DNA from: Methylomonas sp.
GTDB taxonomy: Bacteria > Pseudomonadota > Gammaproteobacteria > Methylococcales > Methylomonadaceae
Length of the DNA stretch: 64,000 bases
Direction of reading: 5' to 3'
NCBI GenBank assembly: GCA_002928965.1
Contig: PERU01000001.1
Location: 310,001-374,000 of the forward strand
Made by a program: the position numbers and the translations under genes. Under the pieces are notes generated by a model. The model was not told the origin of the DNA. It was given only the letters and a program-made list of their open reading frames with translations, and did not search any database. Positions 8,599-54,077 of the stretch are shown here, piece after piece; within the stretch, counting starts at the first letter, position 1; every line of letters starts with the position of its first letter.

Positions 8599-9323
8599 AT
8601 CGCGAATACCATCACTGGTACAGCCCGCGTTTGGGCCGAGACATGGAGTTTCTGGTGTTTGGCCATGCCGGTGCAAAAGTGTTGATATTTCCTACTCGCG
8701 ATGGCCGTTTTTATGAGTATGAAAACCTCAGAATCGTCGAATCCCTGCAGCACAAAATCAACGCCGGTCACTTGCAATTATTTTGCGTGGATAGTATTGA
8801 TCACGAAACATTTTATTGTTTTTGGTGCGATCCCCAAAACCGCATTCAACGCCACATTCATTTTGAAGAATACATTCTGAATGAAATCATGCCCTTTATG
8901 GATGCTAAAAATCCGCATCCATGTACCATTGCCCATGGCTGCAGTTTAGGCGCATATCATGCAGCCAATATTGCCTTCAGGCATCCGCAGCGTTTTAAAA
9001 AGTTAGTGGCTTTTTCCGGACGTTTTGATTTGACGTTGGAAGTGGAACATTTTAAAGATTTGTTTGATGGCTATTACGATAATAATGTTTACTTTCATAC
9101 GCCTAGTCATTTTCTGCCAAATTTGACCAATACCACGCAATTGAACCAGTTACGTCAAATGGACGTTACGCTGGTTATTGGCAAAGATGATCCTTTTCTG
9201 CAGAACAATCGCGAATTAAGTCATGTCCTGACAAAAAAAGGCATCCGTCATGCTCTTTATGAATGGGATAGTCGTGCGCATCAAGGCTATTATTGGCGGC
9301 AGATGGCCCGCATATATATTTGA
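8595..9323 (+). CDS. alpha/beta-hydrolase, putative esterase family
   Basis: A 242-residue protein of the esterase D/antigen 85-like family. The nucleophile elbow AHGCSLGAYHA places Ser117; an aspartate in IGKDDPF and a histidine in WDSRAHQGYYW near the C-terminus complete a likely triad. Proteins of this shape, starting with YHHWYSPRLGRDMEFLVFGH, are common but mostly uncharacterised. The start ATG at 8595 overlaps the upstream esterase stop (ATGA), which favours it over an in-frame TTG at 8580. No signal peptide is visible. The function is inferred only to the level of ester hydrolysis. Confidence 0.72.
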   Translation: MNREYHHWYSPRLGRDMEFLVFGHAGAKVLIFPTRDGRFYEYENLRIVESLQHKINAGHLQLFCVDSIDHETFYCFWCDPQNRIQRHIHFEEYILNEIMPFMDAKNPHPCTIAHGCSLGAYHAANIAFRHPQRFKKLVAFSGRFDLTLEVEHFKDLFDGYYDNNVYFHTPSHFLPNLTNTTQLNQLRQMDVTLVIGKDDPFLQNNRELSHVLTKKGIRHALYEWDSRAHQGYYWRQMARIYI

Positions 9324-44667: not shown

Positions 44668-45945
44668 TTAGCTGGGCTGCTTGATGGGTAAGCGGATCTT
44701 GAAAAGGGAGCCCCGGCCGGGCGTGCTATCAACCTCAATTTTGCCATGATGAGCGGCAATGATGTTTTGTGCAGTTGATAAGCCCAGACCAATGCCCTGA
44801 CCCAGTGGCCGGGTCGTAAAAAAAGGCTCGAATAGATGTTTTAAATGTTCGGGCGCGATGCCATGTCCATCATCAGCAAATTCCACCCATACCTGCTCTG
44901 CATTGTCGCAACCACTTCGGATAGTGATGTTGCCTGCTTTTTGCATGGCTTGGGATGCGTTGATTAACAAGCTTAAAAACACGTGTTTTAACTGGATCGG
45001 TAAACAATAAATCGCTGGGATGTCGGCGTACTGTTTATGAATCGCGCAGTAGGCGTTCTTTTCACTGGCGAAAATGTCTAGTGTGGTGTCCAGGCATTGA
45101 TTGATGTCAGCAAGTTGCCACTGATGATCATCACCTTCGGCAAAGCTGTTCAGGCTTTTTATGATATTGCGAACCCTGGATAATCCGTCACGCGATTCCG
45201 TCAGCAACGCCGGTAAATCCTCACGTAAAAAATCCAGCTCTTTTTGTGCCTTCAGTCGGGTGAAATAGGCAATCGTCTCAGCGGAAACCTGGTCCGGAAC
45301 CAGCAGTTGATCCAACGCATCCAGAAGCTCGAAAATATCCCGGTAGTAATTCTGCAAGGTATTGAAGTTTGCATAGATATAGCCCAGCGGGTTATTGATT
45401 TCATGAGCAACGCCGGCTGCCAGTTGTCCTATTGCTGCCAGTTTTTCCGATTGTAATAATTCCAACTGTATCAATTGATTTTCGCGCAAGCGTTTGGTCA
45501 GTTCCGCTTCAAGATAACTGTTCTGATCTTGCAACCTTTCGCGGGCATTTTTAAGTTCAAGCTGGGTTGTGATGCGAGCCAACAGAATGGCCAGATTGCA
45601 GGGTTTATAGATGTAATCGACAGCCCCCAGTTCAAAGCCTCTGGATTCGTCCAGATCGGAGGTGAGGGCAGTGACGAAAATCACCGGAATATCACGAGTG
45701 ACCGGGTCAGCTTTCAAACAGCTGATTACTTCGTAACCATCCATTTCAGGCATCATCACGTCCAATAAAATCAAATCCGGTTTAGGCGTGTCTTTGGCAA
45801 TTTCCAGCGCTCTTCGACCGGAAGTGGCGGCCAGAACCGAATAGGAGTCCAGTAAATACTGTCCAAATACTGACAGATTGATACTGTCGTCGTCCACAAT
45901 CAGGATGGTGCTGGTTCGCAGGCTTTTCGAGGTAGCGTCAGGCAT
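44668..45945 (-). CDS. receiver-histidine kinase (hybrid, REC first)
   Basis: A 425-residue soluble protein. An N-terminal receiver (ILIVDDDSINLSVFG, LILLDVMMPEMDGYE) is followed by a coiled coil and a kinase: LAAGVAHEINNPLGYI is the H-box, SLLINASQAM the N-box, and DDGHGIAPEH and GQGIGLGLS the G-boxes. There is no membrane segment. REC-first kinases often relay phosphoryl groups between pathways. It is convergent with cheB and divergent from the corrinoid operon, so it could couple chemotaxis and that system (inference). Confidence 0.88.
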   Translation of the reverse strand: MPDATSKSLRTSTILIVDDDSINLSVFGQYLLDSYSVLAATSGRRALEIAKDTPKPDLILLDVMMPEMDGYEVISCLKADPVTRDIPVIFVTALTSDLDESRGFELGAVDYIYKPCNLAILLARITTQLELKNARERLQDQNSYLEAELTKRLRENQLIQLELLQSEKLAAIGQLAAGVAHEINNPLGYIYANFNTLQNYYRDIFELLDALDQLLVPDQVSAETIAYFTRLKAQKELDFLREDLPALLTESRDGLSRVRNIIKSLNSFAEGDDHQWQLADINQCLDTTLDIFASEKNAYCAIHKQYADIPAIYCLPIQLKHVFLSLLINASQAMQKAGNITIRSGCDNAEQVWVEFADDGHGIAPEHLKHLFEPFFTTRPLGQGIGLGLSTAQNIIAAHHGKIEVDSTPGRGSLFKIRLPIKQPS

Positions 45946-46064: not shown

Positions 46065-46373
46065 AGAAGCCTTTCCGAGAATAGGCATCGTCGCGAGTGA
46101 AGCCAAGTTGAGTCAGATTTTTTGATCAGTTAAGGCAAATGGTGGTGCTATTGAACGAAAATGAGCGGGAAATCTGGCCAAAAGGGCGCTTTTGCGTAGC
46201 AGGTTCTCTCTTATGAGGCTGTCGTAAACGTCGAAACAGTTCCTTCTCCCACTGGGAGAAGGTTAGGATGAAGGCATATAAATCAGCTGTTTGCATTATA
46301 TATGCCCCTCACCCCAGCCCTCTCCCGCGAGTAGAGGGGGCTTTTACGACAGCCTCCTTATTGAACAGGTTGC
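46065..46373. mobile_element. MITE-like element, family 1, interrupted copy
   Basis: The left part (46065-46209) matches the complete copy at 20891-21054, including TCAGATTTTTTGATCA and AACGAAAATGAGCGGGAAAT. The right end resumes after 46361 as a decayed inverted repeat (TATTGAACAGGTTGC). Between them sits the family-2 element, so this copy was present first. Confidence 0.65.
46215..46356. mobile_element. MITE-like element, family 2, complete copy
   Basis: A 142-bp element with inverted ends GAGGCTGTCGTAAA and TTTACGACAGCCTC. It is flanked on both sides by CTTAT (46210-46214 and 46357-46361), an exact 5-base target duplication. Two internal hairpins (CCTTCTCCCACTGGGAGAAGG and a CCCTCTCCCGCGAG-type stem) are present and there is no open frame. 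Confidence 0.78.
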
Positions 46374-46441: not shown

Positions 46442-48085
46442 ATGTCTGATGCATTACTGCCACCTGCACAGCCAGTCCAACATACGCTGTCTGTACAAAA
46501 TGACGATTGTGTTTTGCAACTGCAGGTTGCTGAGACTGTCTGTATCCGCGAAGCGCTGGACCAGACCAGTTTGAGAGTACGGGCTGCTTGTGGCGGCATG
46601 GGCAGTTGTGGTGCGTGCCTGATTAAAATCGTCGACGGGCAATTTAATCCACCGACCCTGGCGGAACGACAAAAGTTGATGCCGGAAGATTTGTCAGAAG
46701 GAATGCGCTTGGCTTGTCAACTGCATGCACGCAGCCAGGGAACATTGTATCTGCAGCATCCGGCACCGCATTCGCAGTGGAAAAGTATTGATTTATCCGA
46801 TGTTAAACGCCAGGTTTTCTGTCACGACAGCTTGGTGCAGTGTCCCTATGGGGTGGCTGTTGATTTGGGTACGACCCATATTCGGTTATCACTATGGCAT
46901 AGACCCAGCGGGCGACAAATTGCCAATCGGATAGGGATTAATCCGCAGGTGGCCTATGGGGCGGATGTATTGACCCGCTTGGACGCCAACCGCTTGAGTC
47001 CGCAGGACAATCAGCGGCTGCAGCAAGCTGCGCGTAAAGCCGTCATCGAGGGTGTCCGCGACATTTTAAGCCGTGACATGGGCGAAATAACTCCCATATT
47101 GAAGCAGATCGGCAAAGTGTTGATTGTCGGCAATACCGTGATGTTGACGCTGATAAGTGGCGAAGATAGCAATGCCTTATATGACTTGCAAAACTGGCAT
47201 CAACACGTGGCGTGTCAACCGCAAGACCATGACCCGTGGCGACGTGAATGGCGCATGCCGAATGCAGAGATTGAAATTGTGCAGCCTTTGGCTGGTTTTG
47301 TCGGTTCGGACTTGCTGGCTGATTTGCTGGCTACCGAATTAACCCAACAGCCGGCTCCGGCATTGTTGCTTGATTTGGGCACCAATACCGAAATTGCTTT
47401 ATGGGATGGCAAAACAGTCTGGGTCACCTCCGTGCCGGGAGGGCCAGCCTTTGAAGGTGTTGGAATGCGCAATGGTATGTCATCGGAAACAGGCGCTATT
47501 CATAAAGTCAGTAAGCACAACGACACCTGCTCCGACTCATGGCAGATATTTACGCTAGGCAATGCTGCTGTGCGCGGGTTTTGCGCCAGCGGCTTTATCG
47601 ATGCGGTTGCGTTGTTGCTTCAAACACAGCATTTGAAGCCTTCCGGACGCTTCGCCCAGTCGCAAACGGAGCATGGTTTCCGTTTACAGCACGATAATCG
47701 GTTTTCGGCTATTTATGCTAGCGATATCGATATTTTTCAACGCGCTAAAGCATCGACTGCCGCAGGCATGGCACAATTGATGGCGTTCTCGGGGCTGGAT
47801 TTTTCTGATCTCAACGCATTATGGATTTGCGGTAGTCTGGGGCAGCATATGGACCTAACAAACGCCATTGATGTGGGACTACTCCCCGACATTGATATTC
47901 ATACCATCAACCGCATGACTCATGCCAGTTTGTTAGGTTGTGAGCAGTTGTTGTTAAACCCAGGCGCGGGCACACGCTTGGCTGACATTTTGCAAAAAAC
48001 CAAGTTGATCAATCTGGGCGAGGTGGATCAATACGAACAGCTTTTTATTGACAATCTTCGCTTGCAGCCCTTGAGACCAAGGTAG
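46442..48085 (+). CDS. corrinoid-protein reactivation ATPase (RACo/RamA-like, [2Fe-2S] + ASKHA)
   Basis: A 547-residue protein of the DUF4445/RACo group. The N-terminal 2Fe-2S ferredoxin domain has Cys50, Cys56, Cys59 and Cys92 (ACGGMGSCGAC...RLACQ). The ATPase fold follows: VAVDLGTTHIRLSL (phosphate-1), then LLLDLGTNTEIAL and the SETGAIHKVS region. Characterised RACo-type proteins reduce Co(II) corrinoid back to the active Co(I) state using ATP. It is the first gene of the 46442-54077 operon and is followed by the corrinoid protein after 3 bases. It has no membrane segment. Confidence 0.88.
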   Translation: MSDALLPPAQPVQHTLSVQNDDCVLQLQVAETVCIREALDQTSLRVRAACGGMGSCGACLIKIVDGQFNPPTLAERQKLMPEDLSEGMRLACQLHARSQGTLYLQHPAPHSQWKSIDLSDVKRQVFCHDSLVQCPYGVAVDLGTTHIRLSLWHRPSGRQIANRIGINPQVAYGADVLTRLDANRLSPQDNQRLQQAARKAVIEGVRDILSRDMGEITPILKQIGKVLIVGNTVMLTLISGEDSNALYDLQNWHQHVACQPQDHDPWRREWRMPNAEIEIVQPLAGFVGSDLLADLLATELTQQPAPALLLDLGTNTEIALWDGKTVWVTSVPGGPAFEGVGMRNGMSSETGAIHKVSKHNDTCSDSWQIFTLGNAAVRGFCASGFIDAVALLLQTQHLKPSGRFAQSQTEHGFRLQHDNRFSAIYASDIDIFQRAKASTAAGMAQLMAFSGLDFSDLNALWICGSLGQHMDLTNAIDVGLLPDIDIHTINRMTHASLLGCEQLLLNPGAGTRLADILQKTKLINLGEVDQYEQLFIDNLRLQPLRPR

Positions 48086-48088
48086 CCC

Positions 48089-48757
48089 ATGAATCTGACA
48101 AAATATATTGAGAGCTATAATGAGGCTGTTTTTGAGACAGATAAGCCGGCTGCCTTAGCGGTTGTCAATCAAGCTTTACATGATGGCTACAGCCCGGAAG
48201 AGATCGTCTTCAAACTGGTAATACCGGCGGTTGAGTCCATGATGGAACGGATTGAAAAAGACCCGGATTCCAATTTGGCTCAGCACTTCATGACAGCGCA
48301 AATAGCGGCGGATGTCACCGAAAAAATGCTGGAGAAATTTAGCACGCCGCCTCAAATTATCGGCAAAGTGGTGATCGGTGCTGCGGCAGGTGATTTACAT
48401 TCTTTGGGTAAACGGATTGTGATCGGCTGTCTTAAATCATTGATGGTAGATGTTGTTGACTTGGGTATTAATGTCAGCGCCGAAAGATTTGTGGATGCAG
48501 CCGTTGCCAACAACGCCCAAGTCATAGCTGTTTCCGCCATGATGGTGCATACCGCCACCGGTGAGCATGGCAGTTTGGAAATTCGCGCACTTTTAAAACA
48601 GCGTGGTCTGGAAGATAAAATCAAAATTGCTGTGGGTGGCGCACCGTATCGTTTTGACCCCAAGCTTTATCAAAAAGTCGGTGCCGATGCCTGGGCGGCA
48701 GACGGCGTTACCGCAGCAAAAGTCATCGTGCAATTAATCAATGAGGTTAAAGCATGA
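48089..48757 (+). CDS. B12-binding corrinoid protein (MtaC/MtbC-like)
   Basis: A 222-residue methyltransferase corrinoid protein. An N-terminal helical cap (about residues 1-85) precedes a Rossmann-like B12 domain. The cobalt-ligand motif DxHxxG appears as GDLHSLG, with His104 as lower ligand; a serine in VIAVSAMMVHTATG and IAVGGAPYR complete the cobalamin pocket. Such proteins shuttle methyl groups between two methyltransferases. Here it sits between the reactivation ATPase and the UroD-fold gene, overlapping the latter by an ATGA. Confidence 0.92.
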   Translation: MNLTKYIESYNEAVFETDKPAALAVVNQALHDGYSPEEIVFKLVIPAVESMMERIEKDPDSNLAQHFMTAQIAADVTEKMLEKFSTPPQIIGKVVIGAAAGDLHSLGKRIVIGCLKSLMVDVVDLGINVSAERFVDAAVANNAQVIAVSAMMVHTATGEHGSLEIRALLKQRGLEDKIKIAVGGAPYRFDPKLYQKVGADAWAADGVTAAKVIVQLINEVKA

Positions 48758-49782
48758 CACCTTTGCAGATTCTTGACGCAGCCATAAATGGCACACCAGC
48801 ACCACGCATACCGATTTTCTGTAACTTGTTGGATCAAGGTGCGCGCGAATTGGGTATAGCCTCTAAAGAGTATTTCAATAACGGAACCAAGGTCGCCGAA
48901 GCGCAATTACGCATGCTGAACCGGTACGGACATGACAATGTCTGGAGCCTGCATTATGTTGGTAAAGAGGCTGAGTTACTGGGATGTCAGTCGGTATTGT
49001 TTGCCGATGACGGCCCGCCGAATGTTGCGGATTTTGTTATCAAAACCTGGGACGACATTGCCAAGTTTGAAATCCCTGCCGATATTACCCAACATCCAGC
49101 CTGGGAAACAGTGGCGGATTGTCTGACCTTATTACGTCGTGAAGTGGGCAACACTCACCCCATTTGCGCATATGTAACCGCATCTACCACCTTACCCGCT
49201 ATTTTGATGGGGATGGATAAATGGATGGAGTTGCTGTTGATGGGGCCGGCAGATTTACGCGATGCCTTATTGCGTAAATGTAATCAGTTCGTCAAACAAA
49301 ATATTACCGCCTTGAGTGCTGCCGGTGCCAACGTGTTGATTTATTCATCACCATTTGGATCAACCTATTTCGTCAATAAAAAAATCCTGCAATCGCTGAT
49401 CATGCCCTGGATGCAACAAGATTTACAGCCCGGTGGTGTGCATGATGTGGTGTATTACTGTGGTATGGCGCCGTTTAACGATGTCATTGATGATGTGTTC
49501 GAGCAACTGCAGATCAAGTGTCACTACATCAGCCCGCTAGCCGATTTGGCTGTAGCCAAGCGGATCATTCATCGCCGCGGTCTTACCTGCGGGGTCATTG
49601 ATGACATTAAAATGATTAATTGGAGTGCTGACGAGACACGGGCCGAAGTCAAACGAATTATCGACATCGGCAAAACAGAGGGTCATTTCTTGTTCGGTAC
49701 CGGCGTGATGCCAATGGCGATCCCTGAAACCAATATCAAGGCAATGCTGGATGCAGCCTTCGAATATGGAGCGTTAGCATGA
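48754..49782 (+). CDS. UroD-fold (MtaA/CmuA-like) methyltransferase homologue with degenerate zinc site
   Basis: A 342-residue protein of the uroporphyrinogen-decarboxylase/MtaA/CmuA superfamily. In MtaA-type enzymes a zinc for thiol activation is held by H-x-C-x(n)-C. The equivalent first part reads VVYYCGM (Tyr234, Cys236) so the histidine is tyrosine, and the final cysteine is Thr316 in FLFGTGVMP. Only Cys236 remains, so zinc-dependent methyl transfer is doubtful. Other superfamily marks are PVTN/ITYVTAS-like CAYVTASTTL and MPMAIPETNIKAML. It is not heme UroD: it lies beside the corrinoid protein. It overlaps both neighbours by 4 bases. Confidence 0.85.
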   Translation: MTPLQILDAAINGTPAPRIPIFCNLLDQGARELGIASKEYFNNGTKVAEAQLRMLNRYGHDNVWSLHYVGKEAELLGCQSVLFADDGPPNVADFVIKTWDDIAKFEIPADITQHPAWETVADCLTLLRREVGNTHPICAYVTASTTLPAILMGMDKWMELLLMGPADLRDALLRKCNQFVKQNITALSAAGANVLIYSSPFGSTYFVNKKILQSLIMPWMQQDLQPGGVHDVVYYCGMAPFNDVIDDVFEQLQIKCHYISPLADLAVAKRIIHRRGLTCGVIDDIKMINWSADETRAEVKRIIDIGKTEGHFLFGTGVMPMAIPETNIKAMLDAAFEYGALA

Positions 49783-50396
49783 AAACCTTTACCCTGCATC
49801 AAGAAAACCCGCCACCCTTGACCATGATTGGTTGCGGCATTCTCAGAAAAGAAGTCGAACGCTTGGTTGAAAAAAATCATTGGAATTTGCAGACGCATTT
49901 TCTGGACTCTGCCTTACACAATTACTTGAATCGTTTGTCCAAGGAACTGAATCAGGCTTTGGATGAGCGGGAACAGCGCGGAGAAAAAACTGTGGTGTTA
50001 TACGGCAGTTGTCATCCGTTGATGGAACAGTACCTGGAAGATCATCAAACCTGTCGAACGCATGGTCAGAATTGTATCGTGATGTTACTTGGGTACGAGC
50101 GATTTATGCAGGAACTGGAAAAGGGTGCGTATTTTTTATTGGAAGACTGGGCGCTGACTTGGCATCCGATGATTACCGCCTGTTTTGGCAGCAATGTCAG
50201 TGTGGTCAGGGAGATTTTCCATAGCGGTCACAAATTTATTTTAGCGCTCAGAACCCCTTGTAACGGTGATTTTGTCGAGGCAGCCGAAAGTGCTGCGCAG
50301 TTTGTAGACTTGCCGTTGTATTGGCTGGACGTCTCCTTAGACCATCTGGAGCAGGTCATCTCGGACGCTATTGAAGAACGGCTTAGTCTGGAATGA
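49779..50396 (+). CDS. DUF1638 protein, corrinoid-methyltransferase-associated
   Basis: A 205-residue protein of the DUF1638 family, recognised by MIGCGILRKEVERLVEKNHW, VVLYGSCHPLM and LLGYERF. The family usually occurs near corrinoid methyltransferase genes; its reaction is unknown. Several conserved Cys/His (Cys19, SCHPLM, the TCRTHGQNC stretch and HP in WHPMITACFG) look like a metal site. It overlaps both the UroD-like gene (ATGA) and the kinase gene. Confidence 0.85.
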   Translation: MKTFTLHQENPPPLTMIGCGILRKEVERLVEKNHWNLQTHFLDSALHNYLNRLSKELNQALDEREQRGEKTVVLYGSCHPLMEQYLEDHQTCRTHGQNCIVMLLGYERFMQELEKGAYFLLEDWALTWHPMITACFGSNVSVVREIFHSGHKFILALRTPCNGDFVEAAESAAQFVDLPLYWLDVSLDHLEQVISDAIEERLSLE

Positions 50397-51970
50397 TCAC
50401 CTCATCCCCCACCTATCAGGAACTGCAACAGCAGGTAACCCAGTTGGAAAGTCGGGTACGCAAATTATCCGAAGACAAAGCCAATTTGTACTTGGTGTTG
50501 CATATGGTGGAGTTGTTAAACCCCATCGCCGGGGTGGACAGCTTTTTGGACAGTTTGATGTCGGCTTTGTGTGGCAGCATGGGAGGGACTAATGTCGAGA
50601 TTTATTACCTCGATGTAGGCGAAATTCATTATCAGAATTTGCTGTCAAAAGAACAGCGGATACTGGAAAAAATTGAAGATCCGTTGGTAGAAAGGGTTTT
50701 TAAATGTCATGGATTGGTTGAGGACTCGACCGACCTGAATCACACGCTGTTAAAAGAAAATATTGCGGCTGTGGCCTGTACCTGGGTAATACCCTTGTTG
50801 GTTGCCAACAAATTCCTGGGCGCGATCAAAATGTCGGATTTACTGGGTTCTGCACAGATGCGCGACTATCTGACACCGTTTTTCACCCATATCGCCCTGA
50901 TTCTGGATAACAAGATTCAAACCCGTAAAGCGGAGAGTGCCAACAAAGCCAAATCCAGCTTTTTGGCCACCATGTCGCACGAAATACGAACGCCGTTAAA
51001 CGGTATCTTCGGCATGGCGCAGCTGTTGTCGGCGGCAGATTGCAGCTTTGAACAGCGTCAGGAATATGCCAAAATCATCCTCAATTCAGGCCAAACTTTG
51101 TTGACCTTGCTGAATGATATTTTGGATTTGTCAAAAATTGAAGCCGAACGCTTGGATCTACAATTTTCCTCCGCCAGTCCCGAGCAGATACTCAATGATG
51201 TGCTGGTATTGTTTTCCGGGAATGCCCAGCAAAAGGGTTTGAACATCAGCGCTGTTTGGCATGGACCCAAGCATAAAACCTATCAGTTGGATAAGCTGAG
51301 AGTGAAGCAGATGTTATCCAATTTGGTTAACAATGCCATCAAATTTACGCCGCAGGGCAGTATTTTGATTGAGGCAAATGAATGCGGCGCAGACGCTAAA
51401 CAGCCCAAATTGGAATTTTCAGTGACTGATACCGGGGTCGGGATAGCTAAAGATAAACAACACGAACTGTTCAAGCCTTTCACTCAAGTCGATAGCAGTT
51501 CTACCAGACGTCATGAAGGTACTGGATTGGGTTTATCACTGGTGCTTCGATTTGCAGAATTGATGCAAGGCAAAGCAGGTGTAAGCAGTAGTGAAGGGCA
51601 GGGCGCACGCTTCTGGTTTCGAATAGCCGTTCAGGGCGCTGAGGTGCTTGCCAGCAGTGACGTGGTTCAGGCGACGGATATGGATAAGGTGGAGTCCAGT
51701 ACCCTGGAAGCATTATCAGACGCGGACAAGGTTGTATTGCCGGGTTATACAGGGATAGAGGCAGACCTAAACGAGTTAAAGCGATTATTAGAAAAAAATA
51801 TGTTTAATGCCATTGGCCAGTTCAAAATGATTCAGAGCAAATGCGAGGCGGATACAGCACTGTCTGCACACTTTGACAAACTGGGAAGATTGATAAACAG
51901 CATGCAATTTGAACAAGCAACCAGCCAGTTACAGTCGTTATGTACATTACTGGACGCATCCCATGATTGA
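50393..51970 (+). CDS. GAF-histidine kinase coupled to the corrinoid module
   Basis: A 525-residue cytoplasmic sensor kinase. A short coiled coil (residues 5-30) leads into a GAF-like domain (about 35-180), then HisKA with FLATMSHEIRTPLNG (His196) and a HATPase with NLVNNAIKFTP, DTGVGIAKDK and GTGLGLSL. After the kinase there is a ~90-residue helical tail without the HPt histidine. No transmembrane segment, so it senses something in the cytoplasm. The start overlaps DUF1638 by 4 bases and its stop overlaps the next regulator by 8. Confidence 0.88.
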   Translation: MITSSPTYQELQQQVTQLESRVRKLSEDKANLYLVLHMVELLNPIAGVDSFLDSLMSALCGSMGGTNVEIYYLDVGEIHYQNLLSKEQRILEKIEDPLVERVFKCHGLVEDSTDLNHTLLKENIAAVACTWVIPLLVANKFLGAIKMSDLLGSAQMRDYLTPFFTHIALILDNKIQTRKAESANKAKSSFLATMSHEIRTPLNGIFGMAQLLSAADCSFEQRQEYAKIILNSGQTLLTLLNDILDLSKIEAERLDLQFSSASPEQILNDVLVLFSGNAQQKGLNISAVWHGPKHKTYQLDKLRVKQMLSNLVNNAIKFTPQGSILIEANECGADAKQPKLEFSVTDTGVGIAKDKQHELFKPFTQVDSSSTRRHEGTGLGLSLVLRFAELMQGKAGVSSSEGQGARFWFRIAVQGAEVLASSDVVQATDMDKVESSTLEALSDADKVVLPGYTGIEADLNELKRLLEKNMFNAIGQFKMIQSKCEADTALSAHFDKLGRLINSMQFEQATSQLQSLCTLLDASHD

Positions 51971-54077
51971 TTTACCGACCGAAGCGCGCTTCAAAATTTT
52001 AATCATTGATGATACCCCTGCCAATATTGCGTTGTTGGGTTTGGCATTACAGGATGAGTATGAAATTCAAATAGCAACCTCCGGCAGTAAAGGTTTGGAA
52101 TTGGCCACGCAGGATCCACCACCGGACTTGATTCTGCTGGACATCATGATGCCAGATATGGATGGGTATCAAACCTGTCAGCGCATAAAACAAACGCCGG
52201 AACTGCAAAATATCCCCATCATATTTGTTACTGCTCTGAATGAAATCGATGCAGAAGTGCAGGGCTTGTCCCTGGGTGCGGCTGACTTTCTGGTTAAACC
52301 CATCAATATCGAAACTGCCCGTTTACGCATTCACTATCAACTGGAACGCGAGGGTATGCGACGCGAGTTAGAGCGTCGGGAGTCTTCGTTACGTTTGGCT
52401 GCCAGCGTATTTGCCTTTAGTCATGACGGCATTATGATCACCGATGCCGAGAATAATATTATCAATGTTAATGCCGCATTTTCGCGTATTTCCGGCTATG
52501 AACTGGAAGATGTCAGAGGTAAAAATCCCAGAATTTTAAAATCAGGTCGGCAATCGGACGAGTTTTATAGGGCTATGTGGCATAGCCTGCTTACCCATAA
52601 CCACTGGAATGGTGAAATCTGGAATCGAAATAAAAACGGTGAGATTTACGCGGCTTTAACATCCATTTCTACCGTCAAGGATGAACAGGGCGGCATTCAT
52701 CACTTTATCGGTATTTTTGCCGATATCACCTTGTTGAAAAATCAGCAATATAACCTGGAGCGGATTGCCCATTTCGATGCATTAACCGGAGTTCCCAATC
52801 GGGTGCTGTTGATAGACCGCATCGATCAAGCCATCGCCCAAACCCAGCGTTCAGGTAATTTGATGGCACTTTGTTATCTGGATTTAGATGGATTTAAACC
52901 GGTAAATGACACTTACGGGCATGACATCGGCGACCAATTGCTAATAGCGGTGACCCGGCGGATCAAGGAATGCCTGCGAGCCGGCGATACCCTGGCCAGG
53001 ATTGGGGGCGATGAGTTTGTACTGGTGTTGCTGGATATCAAAGAAGGTTCGGAATGCCAGACTGTCTTAAACAGAATTTTGGCTAGAGTCGCTGAAAATA
53101 CTGTGTTGGCAGGACATAGCGTTTCGGTGTCCGTCAGTTTGGGTTTTACCTTATATCCTGACGATTTATCGGATGCTGAAACCCTGATACGCCATGCAGA
53201 TCAAGCAATGTATGTTGCCAAGCAGCGAGGTAAAAATCGCTATCAACGGTTCGACCCGTTTTTAGATCAGCAGGCTTTGGAACACGGCAAAATGCTGTCA
53301 AGACTGGAAGCGGCGTTTGCCAATCAGGAATTCGTGCTCTATTTCCAGCCCAAAATTAACATGCGTTTGGGCAAGATTCTAGGGGCCGAAGCCTTGATTC
53401 GTTGGCAGCATCCGTTGCGCGGTGTTTTGTCGCCAGCGGAGTTTCTGCCGCAAATTATGGGTACAGAGCTGGAAGTGACATTGGGTCAGTGGGTTTTGGC
53501 ACAGGCCCTAAGCTATTTGCAAACATGGCAAGCCATGGGCATGCAATTGACCATCAGCATCAATATTTCCCCTGCACATTTGCTGAACGCCAGCTTTGTG
53601 GATGAGTTAGCGGCCCAATTGGCTCTGCATCCCGGTTTTACCCCCGACTGTCTTGAGCTGGAAATCCTGGAAACTGCGGCATTGGATGATATGGTCAAAG
53701 TCACCCAGGTGATGCATGCCTGTCAGCAATTAGGCATCGAGTTTGCGCTGGATGATTTTGGTACCGGATATTCGTCCTTAACCTATTTGAAAACCCTGCC
53801 CGCTAAAACCTTAAAAATTGATAAGTCATTTGTAATGGATATGCTCAATGATGCTGAAGATTTGGCGATTGTCACCGGCATAATTGATTTAACCCGTACC
53901 TTCGGCAGGGATGTGATAGCCGAAGGTGTGGAGTCACTGCAGCATGGCAGCAAGCTATTGGAATTGGGTTGCGCTAATGCACAGGGATTTGCGATTGCCC
54001 GCCCTATGCCAGCCGAAACGTTTATCCAATGGGTGAAAGACTGGCAACCCATCAAAGCTTGGTTTAACAAAGACTGA
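51963..54077 (+). CDS. response regulator with PAS, GGDEF and EAL domains
   Basis: A 704-residue protein that should both make and degrade cyclic-di-GMP. A receiver domain (ILIIDDTPANIALLG, LILLDIMMPDMDGYQ) is followed by a PAS domain (about 155-275), a GGDEF domain with the intact GGDEF active site and a RAGD inhibitory site five residues before it, and an EAL domain with intact EAL (GAEALIRW) and DDFGTGYSSL. ATG at 51963 begins just before the receiver and overlaps the kinase stop by 8 bases, implying that it is the kinase's partner. An earlier ATG lies inside the kinase gene. Confidence 0.9.
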   Translation: MIDLPTEARFKILIIDDTPANIALLGLALQDEYEIQIATSGSKGLELATQDPPPDLILLDIMMPDMDGYQTCQRIKQTPELQNIPIIFVTALNEIDAEVQGLSLGAADFLVKPINIETARLRIHYQLEREGMRRELERRESSLRLAASVFAFSHDGIMITDAENNIINVNAAFSRISGYELEDVRGKNPRILKSGRQSDEFYRAMWHSLLTHNHWNGEIWNRNKNGEIYAALTSISTVKDEQGGIHHFIGIFADITLLKNQQYNLERIAHFDALTGVPNRVLLIDRIDQAIAQTQRSGNLMALCYLDLDGFKPVNDTYGHDIGDQLLIAVTRRIKECLRAGDTLARIGGDEFVLVLLDIKEGSECQTVLNRILARVAENTVLAGHSVSVSVSLGFTLYPDDLSDAETLIRHADQAMYVAKQRGKNRYQRFDPFLDQQALEHGKMLSRLEAAFANQEFVLYFQPKINMRLGKILGAEALIRWQHPLRGVLSPAEFLPQIMGTELEVTLGQWVLAQALSYLQTWQAMGMQLTISINISPAHLLNASFVDELAAQLALHPGFTPDCLELEILETAALDDMVKVTQVMHACQQLGIEFALDDFGTGYSSLTYLKTLPAKTLKIDKSFVMDMLNDAEDLAIVTGIIDLTRTFGRDVIAEGVESLQHGSKLLELGCANAQGFAIARPMPAETFIQWVKDWQPIKAWFNKD

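Follow-up and report, generated by a model that had tools for sequence, protein, structure and literature searches.

A corrinoid methyl-transfer module associated with its own GAF-domain family: a predicted sensory system in Methylomonas and other bacteria

A stretch of 64,000 nucleotides from the 4.03 Mb genome of Methylomonas sp. (GCA_002928965.1, contig PERU01000001.1; G000:C1:310001-374000, hereafter the window) contains six open reading frames (ORFs), all on the plus strand between 46442 and 54077, in which a corrinoid module (activase, corrinoid protein, UroD-fold protein and DUF1638 protein) is followed by a histidine kinase and a response regulator with cyclic di-GMP (c-di-GMP) domains. 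Corrinoid methyltransferases are known as metabolic enzymes. Here genomic context strongly supports a corrinoid module feeding a signalling pathway, since a GAF-domain family carried by the kinase is present in 34 of the 35 related genomes with the module and absent from all 116 without it. We consider it probable that the operon is a sensory system with a corrinoid methyl-transfer half-chain as its input device. We infer that the state of the corrinoid protein is the signal, because a donor-side chain and a reactivation apparatus occur together with a co-travelling signalling domain and no acceptor was found nearby. The features are as follows.

46442..48085, plus strand: RACo-type corrinoid reductive activase with 2Fe-2S, RACo middle and C-terminal ASKHA domains (Pfam PF14574, PF17651, PF00111; RACo_C_ter, Raco_middle, Fer2; structure entry 3zyy, E 2e-50)
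48089..48757, plus strand: corrinoid protein, helical cap and B12-binding domain (Pfam PF02607, PF02310; B12-binding_2, B12-binding), DxHxxG at 48392-48409
48754..49782, plus strand: UroD-fold protein (Pfam PF01208, URO-D; 4ay7 alignment; column counts), predicted methyl-donor:corrinoid methyltransferase or ligand-binding relative
49779..50396, plus strand: DUF1638 protein (Pfam PF07796; conserved Cys; fitness evidence from a relative, PMC5764234), presumed partner in corrinoid activation or reading
50393..50938, plus strand: GAF sensor domain and signalling helix (kinase residues 1-182), associated with the corrinoid module (alignment A2, AlphaFold, Foldseek, co-occurrence)
50393..51970, plus strand: histidine kinase, GAF, HisKA and HATPase_c (Pfam PF00512, PF02518)
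51957..54077, plus strand: response regulator REC-PAS-GGDEF-EAL with c-di-GMP domains (Pfam PF00072, PAS, PF00990, PF00563; GGDEF and EAL motifs in the translation)
44668..45945, minus strand: divergent REC-HisKA-HATPase gene, possible extra component (Pfam; synteny)

Genomic association of the corrinoid module with a GAF family

The original prediction described six genes that overlap or nearly touch in one operon, and the ORF list and Pfam bear this out. The activase and corrinoid genes are separated by 3 bases, the next three junctions are 4-base overlaps, and a regulator start at ATG 51957 gives a 14-base overlap with the kinase (the ORF listing gives TTG at 51909 as an alternative). The activase has all of the N-terminal 2Fe-2S, middle and C-terminal domains expected of RACo by Pfam and the 3zyy match, and at the domain level both halves of a two-component system, a HisKA/HATPase kinase and a REC partner, are present. 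The layout is more than chance, and the kinase and regulator are not accidental neighbours, because the gene order recurs both in relatives and in distant phyla.

The first approximately 180 residues of the kinase are without a Pfam match, including any GAF match at E <= 0.001, although some homologues give weak Pfam GAF matches. An AlphaFold model of this domain, built from an alignment of 73 family copies (A2), has a mean pLDDT of 90.3, and Foldseek returned 114 Protein Data Bank (PDB) matches at E <= 0.001, many of them named GAF domain; A2 used as a profile matched no PDB sequence. The model and the weak homologue matches uphold the earlier assignment of a GAF domain to the kinase, and the N-terminus is best described as a predicted GAF fold that forms a GAF family of its own. 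As a query it matched 79 ORFs among the 4313 of the 80 loci described below, all at E <= 2e-12.

Presence in 151 related genomes was scored at E<1e-80 for the corrinoid protein, E<1e-40 for the GAF family and E<1e-50 for DUF1638, thresholds that were chosen after the gap between strong and weak matches was seen, and the resulting counts ignore kinship. The corrinoid protein of this class occurs in 35 genomes, 34 of which have exactly one copy of the GAF family. The exception, G137, has no GAF; immediately upstream of its module lie a PAS-kinase-REC gene and a REC gene. DUF1638 is found in 33 of the 35; the other two, G061 and G126, have the corrinoid, UroD and GAF-kinase genes without an adjacent DUF1638. 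Reading of 35 related loci (the window, 32 others and two more, with the weak DUF1638 loci L065 and L066 excluded) placed the GAF-kinase after the module in 33; in G029 the sequence is cut with its GAF adjoining the module, and G137 has none. The kinase/regulator pair is thus not regularly separate from the corrinoid genes in relatives, an outcome that would have counted against the original prediction. That prediction also had the corrinoid state reported to c-di-GMP. The link to signalling holds up in genomic context; the output needs correction, as a c-di-GMP gene comes next after the kinase in 25 of the 35 loci and c-di-GMP is one of several outputs, not the conserved feature.

Several features surround the module. 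The divergent REC-kinase gene lies upstream of it in 18 of the 35 related loci, including stretches where cheR/cheB were not seen. In G137 a response regulator domain is fused to a carbohydrate phosphorylase (PF00343; L064 13130-16015, minus strand) just upstream of the corrinoid module. Between genes, upstream of the activase in the window, is a dispersed repeat with inverted ends (46205-46365) that has 28 matches in the genome including itself, 25 of the 27 others being 90-97% identical. Riboswitch control was rejected, an Rfam scan of the window having found no family above cut-off, and promoter and terminator scans did no better than on shuffled sequence (14 vs 11.8 and 5 vs 9.2).

Distribution across phyla and exchange of outputs

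Among 398 evenly drawn genomes of the same phylum, DUF1638 was found in 57 and the GAF family in 11 (the Methylomonas genome included), and in all 11 the GAF adjoins DUF1638 and UroD. When named genomes were scanned with the UroD alignment, 129 relatives emerged; the best 80 loci were kept, and their record titles place them in 11 phyla. The UroD protein of the window has its best named matches in Methylomonas. All 80 contain the corrinoid protein, 70 contain DUF1638, 55 RACo and 74 the GAF family, mostly encoded in the next gene. Within 2.5 kb downstream of UroD, 76 loci have a same-strand signalling gene; of the remaining four, three end at a contig edge. The loci without GAF are L090, L103 (contig end), L115, L123, L140 and L141. 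A search with A2 in the genomes of 40 of these loci was positive in 38, which is no independent test because the genomes were picked for having the module. Nine extra GAF places were fetched, one being the weak G114 match discussed below; in L272, L275, L276, L277 and L280 the module or part of it is present. L275, L276 and L277 are second, diverged modules with their own GAF kinases in the genomes of L111, L109 and L112 (GAF E ~1e-34).

Across these loci the GAF family is joined to a kinase, a kinase-REC, a PAS-GGDEF-EAL or a GGDEF output. A quick UroD tree with 80 rows (the window and 79 loci) has 34 kinases, 26 kinase-RECs, four direct cyclase fusions, four rows with no recognised output and 12 unlabelled rows, some of the last set so by hand as cut or unclear; L117 was set as kinase by hand from an HWE_HK match. 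The division between kinase and kinase-REC is rough because REC detection by single queries is incomplete. The cyclase fusions (L084, L091, L098 and L106) require four changes on the tree, and the first three are GAF-PAS-GGDEF-EAL proteins, PAS-GGDEF-EAL being the block that follows REC in the window regulator. Recurrence across bacterial groups with such varied outputs suggests an undescribed form of sensing based on B12 chemistry.

DUF1638 is also joined directly to kinases. L138 encodes DUF1638-GAF-HisKA-HATPase as one ORF, and in a second, more distant corrinoid-signalling family, here class II, DUF1638 is fused to a histidine kinase in L065 and L220-L224, beside its own corrinoid and UroD genes in five of the six, L223 beginning at a contig edge; the further class II loci L225 and L226 are cut. 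Because such fusions exist, DUF1638 may be in contact with the reader.

A number of observations weigh against a dedicated sensory module. The 80 loci were selected by UroD similarity, and their counts hold under that condition; bins may also carry wrong labels, as the near-identical L119 and L121 illustrate. RACo was unseen in 25 of the 80 loci, scored within the fetched stretches with the rest of the genomes not searched. The GAF-less modules L123, L140 and L141 form one clade on the UroD tree. GAF-kinases stand in fetched stretches without the module in L273, L274 and L278; their genomes, picked for having the module, do carry it elsewhere, and L278 speaks for the link, since it provides a GAF gene in the L115 genome, where none adjoins the module. 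The 40-genome search gave three further weak A2 matches outside modules, and among the 151 relatives weak GAF matches near 1e-4 occur in G114 and G141, outside the corrinoid-bearing set; G114, the one of these outliers that was inspected, has no module nearby. Five complete GAF ORFs (L114, L118, L131, L133 and the second ORF of L127) have no recognised kinase or cyclase domain. Finally, no column of the 73-copy GAF family has a His or Cys majority (best 33/73), and because of this direct cobalt ligation by the domain is unlikely.

The same lack of a conserved metal ligand is compatible with an alternative in which the GAF domain binds a small ligand of its own that is made or removed by the corrinoid enzyme, the corrinoid state going unread. 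GAF domains often do bind small ligands; the DUF1638-kinase fusions, however, suggest physical contact with the module over sensing of a product, and we regard this alternative as improbable, third among the rivals considered here.

Methyl-transfer chemistry and the missing acceptor side

The UroD-fold protein aligns over its full length with the MtaA structure 4ay7. UroD-superfamily S-methyltransferases have a His-Cys-Cys zinc site (PMC10418091). This site, shared by MtaA, MtbA and Mlp, is absent from all 81 readable copies (82 rows, one with gaps there): Tyr replaces His in 81/81, Cys is kept in 75/81, and Thr, Asn or Ser replaces the last Cys in 81/81, Tyr234 and Thr316 being the window residues at the two changed positions. 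With the zinc ligands lost, identity as an MtaA/MtbA-type CoM methyltransferase was rejected and MtaA-like thiol activation is unlikely. UroD-superfamily proteins can themselves be substrate:corrinoid methyltransferases (MT1; PMC13222342, PMC9768040), and one of them, CdmB, is a UroD-family MTI that needs no zinc and contains an aromatic cavity (PMC13222342). The UroD-fold protein may therefore itself be the MT1, which qualifies the original statement that none is present. That statement stands for MttB, as PF06253 was above cut-off in 0 of the 151 genomes, the Methylomonas genome included, with one sub-cut-off fragment in G115; the search did not extend to the MtaB and MtbB/MtmB families.

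The corrinoid protein is of the methyltransferase type, with a helical cap and a B12 domain whose D102, H104 and G107 (DxHxxG) are kept in 82/82 aligned copies. Its sole other match in the genome is a full-length MetH that carries its own activation domain, PF02965, for which reason we rejected service to MetH as the role of RACo and DUF1638; some help to MetH is possible. A quick corrinoid protein tree sets the sensory class apart by a branch with support 77, where long branches meet, and has only two rows from loci lacking UroD, although 8/9 such loci have a corrinoid match; it is not relied on. In L100 (ORF at 9224) and L140 (9338-11029) the corrinoid and UroD-fold proteins are read as a single ORF. 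In DUF1638, Cys19, Cys78 and Cys99 are kept in 71/71 class I copies and in 9/9 copies from UroD-less loci, conservation that fits a common role in corrinoid activation; class II has them in 4/8, 6/8 and 8/8 copies, the remainder being gaps. The DUF1638 structure model is confident (pLDDT 93.6) and has no PDB match at E <= 0.001; no function was read from the fold. Fitness evidence makes a DUF1638 relative a partner of split methionine synthase, with a RamA-like activase (PMC5764234).

DUF1638 without the GAF family was found in 46 of the 398 surveyed genomes, five of them class II genomes, and nine UroD-less DUF1638 loci from this set (L227-L235) were read. None of the nine has a UroD, kinase, REC or GGDEF match in approximately 18 kb each; three have MttB, five a pterin protein and four neither. 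Single MttB and MtgD-like pterin-protein queries against 7123 ORFs (L272-L281 lying outside the set) matched only L229, L231 and L232 and only L228-L232, respectively, and no sensory locus. The MttB result covers PF06253 and one query, with other MT1 families outside the search, and an acceptor in the cluster was sought with one pterin-protein query, PF00809 not being run on the Methylomonas genome, whose MetH has such a domain. On present sequence evidence it is the acceptor side, rather than an MT1, that did not turn up near the module. The UroD-less loci fit DUF1638 and RamA-like partners of methionine synthase (PMC5764234) and MtgBCD (PMC12478193).

These results bear on two further explanations. 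In the main rival, which we consider unlikely, the system senses redox state or oxygen: cobalt would cycle between Co(I) and Co(II) with RACo setting the balance, the UroD-fold protein would be non-catalytic or ligand-binding, and the GAF domain would report cobalt oxidation. Co(I) is very prone to oxidation, two of the three MtaA zinc ligands are gone and no acceptor protein matched nearby. Against this, 12 diverse UroD-fold copies share 99 invariant columns, a zinc-free UroD-family methyltransferase exists (PMC13222342), and RACo, which would set the balance, is unseen in 25 of the 80 loci. Next in rank, and distinctly unlikely, is an ordinary metabolic operon in which the two-component system does no more than regulate a module for substrate demethylation. 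The mec cassette does have a two-component pair beside a corrinoid protein and UroD-superfamily MTIs (PMC9768040), and corrinoid, RamA-like and DUF1638 proteins do take part in making methionine and in using glycine betaine (PMC5764234, PMC12478193). The window response regulator, however, is a c-di-GMP enzyme, the sensor domain stays constant while outputs vary, the pterin-protein query matches none of the sensory loci searched, and the nine UroD-less loci are without signalling genes.

Proposed mechanism and relation to known systems

In the predicted sensory system, the UroD-fold protein would bring a small methyl donor or ligand and methylate the corrinoid cobalt, as its family suggests. 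RACo with DUF1638 would return Co(II) to Co(I) and so keep the corrinoid protein ready, a step modelled on the activase family and on PMC5764234. The kinase GAF domain, with DUF1638 as a probable helper, would recognise one corrinoid state, methyl-Co(III) vs Co(I)/Co(II), and control the kinase, as co-occurrence and fusions suggest. By standard two-component logic, phosphate would then pass to the REC-PAS-GGDEF-EAL protein and c-di-GMP would change; in other lineages the same GAF domain would drive other outputs. More tentatively, and with somewhat less confidence than for the Methylomonas operon, we suggest that in about eleven phyla bacteria take an intracellular signal from how far a dedicated corrinoid protein is methylated, the acceptor-less half-chain (UroD-fold methyltransferase, corrinoid protein, Co(I) activase and DUF1638) being purely a sensor that is read by its own GAF family plugged into kinases or c-di-GMP enzymes.

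If so, a methyl-transfer half-chain has been turned into a sensor that comes with an exchangeable signalling domain of its own, a new input class for two-component and c-di-GMP signalling, in methane oxidisers, Geobacter-type and magnetotactic bacteria and others. What the sensor reports may be a methylated compound, or the redox boundary that many of these organisms inhabit. DUF1638 would gain a testable role, and UroD/corrinoid/RACo clusters that resemble methyltransferases would gain a reading. The individual domains are all of known families; any novelty lies in the whole system, the function of which is a prediction. No description of this corrinoid-signalling module was found in the open-access literature, subscription papers being largely outside the search.

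A cobalamin photoreceptor of the CarH kind also ties a B12-binding domain to signalling, but we judge this explanation very unlikely. CarH is not known to have an activase or methyltransferase partner. In the window the B12 domain belongs to a separate 222-residue protein of the methyltransferase type, which has DxHxxG and a UroD-fold neighbour, and a Co(I) activase, which a photoreceptor would not need, occurs in 55 of the 80 loci. Light-responsive B12 domains fused to diguanylate cyclase or GAF domains have been reported (PMC11796333); CarH-type receptors resemble the window system in using a B12-binding domain as sensory input and differ from it in being light-driven, with that domain fused to the output (PMC11796333).

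The other known systems compared here are methyltransferase systems. Type 1 mlp clusters share UroD-superfamily proteins, a corrinoid protein, a RACE activase and the absence of a folate methyltransferase, but have several Mlps with His-Cys-Cys zinc sites (some Mlp1 excepted) and belong to obligate anaerobes; in the main text 'kinase' appears twice, in names of metabolic enzymes, and 'sensor' and 'signal' are absent (PMC10418091). The CdmBCA chloromethane system and O-demethylases likewise pair a UroD-family MTI, zinc-free in CdmB, with a corrinoid protein, whereas CdmBCA is catabolic with an MTII, CdmA, and 'kinase' is absent from the main text (PMC13222342). The mec cassette for dichloromethane use clusters a corrinoid protein, UroD-superfamily MTIs and a two-component pair, but it includes the MTII MecF and its pair is transcriptional, with a PocR domain in the kinase (PMC9768040). 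Split methionine synthase and MtgBCD bring together a corrinoid protein, a RamA/RACo-like activase and DUF1638 (PMC5764234, PMC12478193); the nine UroD-less loci of this kind lack UroD-fold and signalling genes, whereas the window operon has both.

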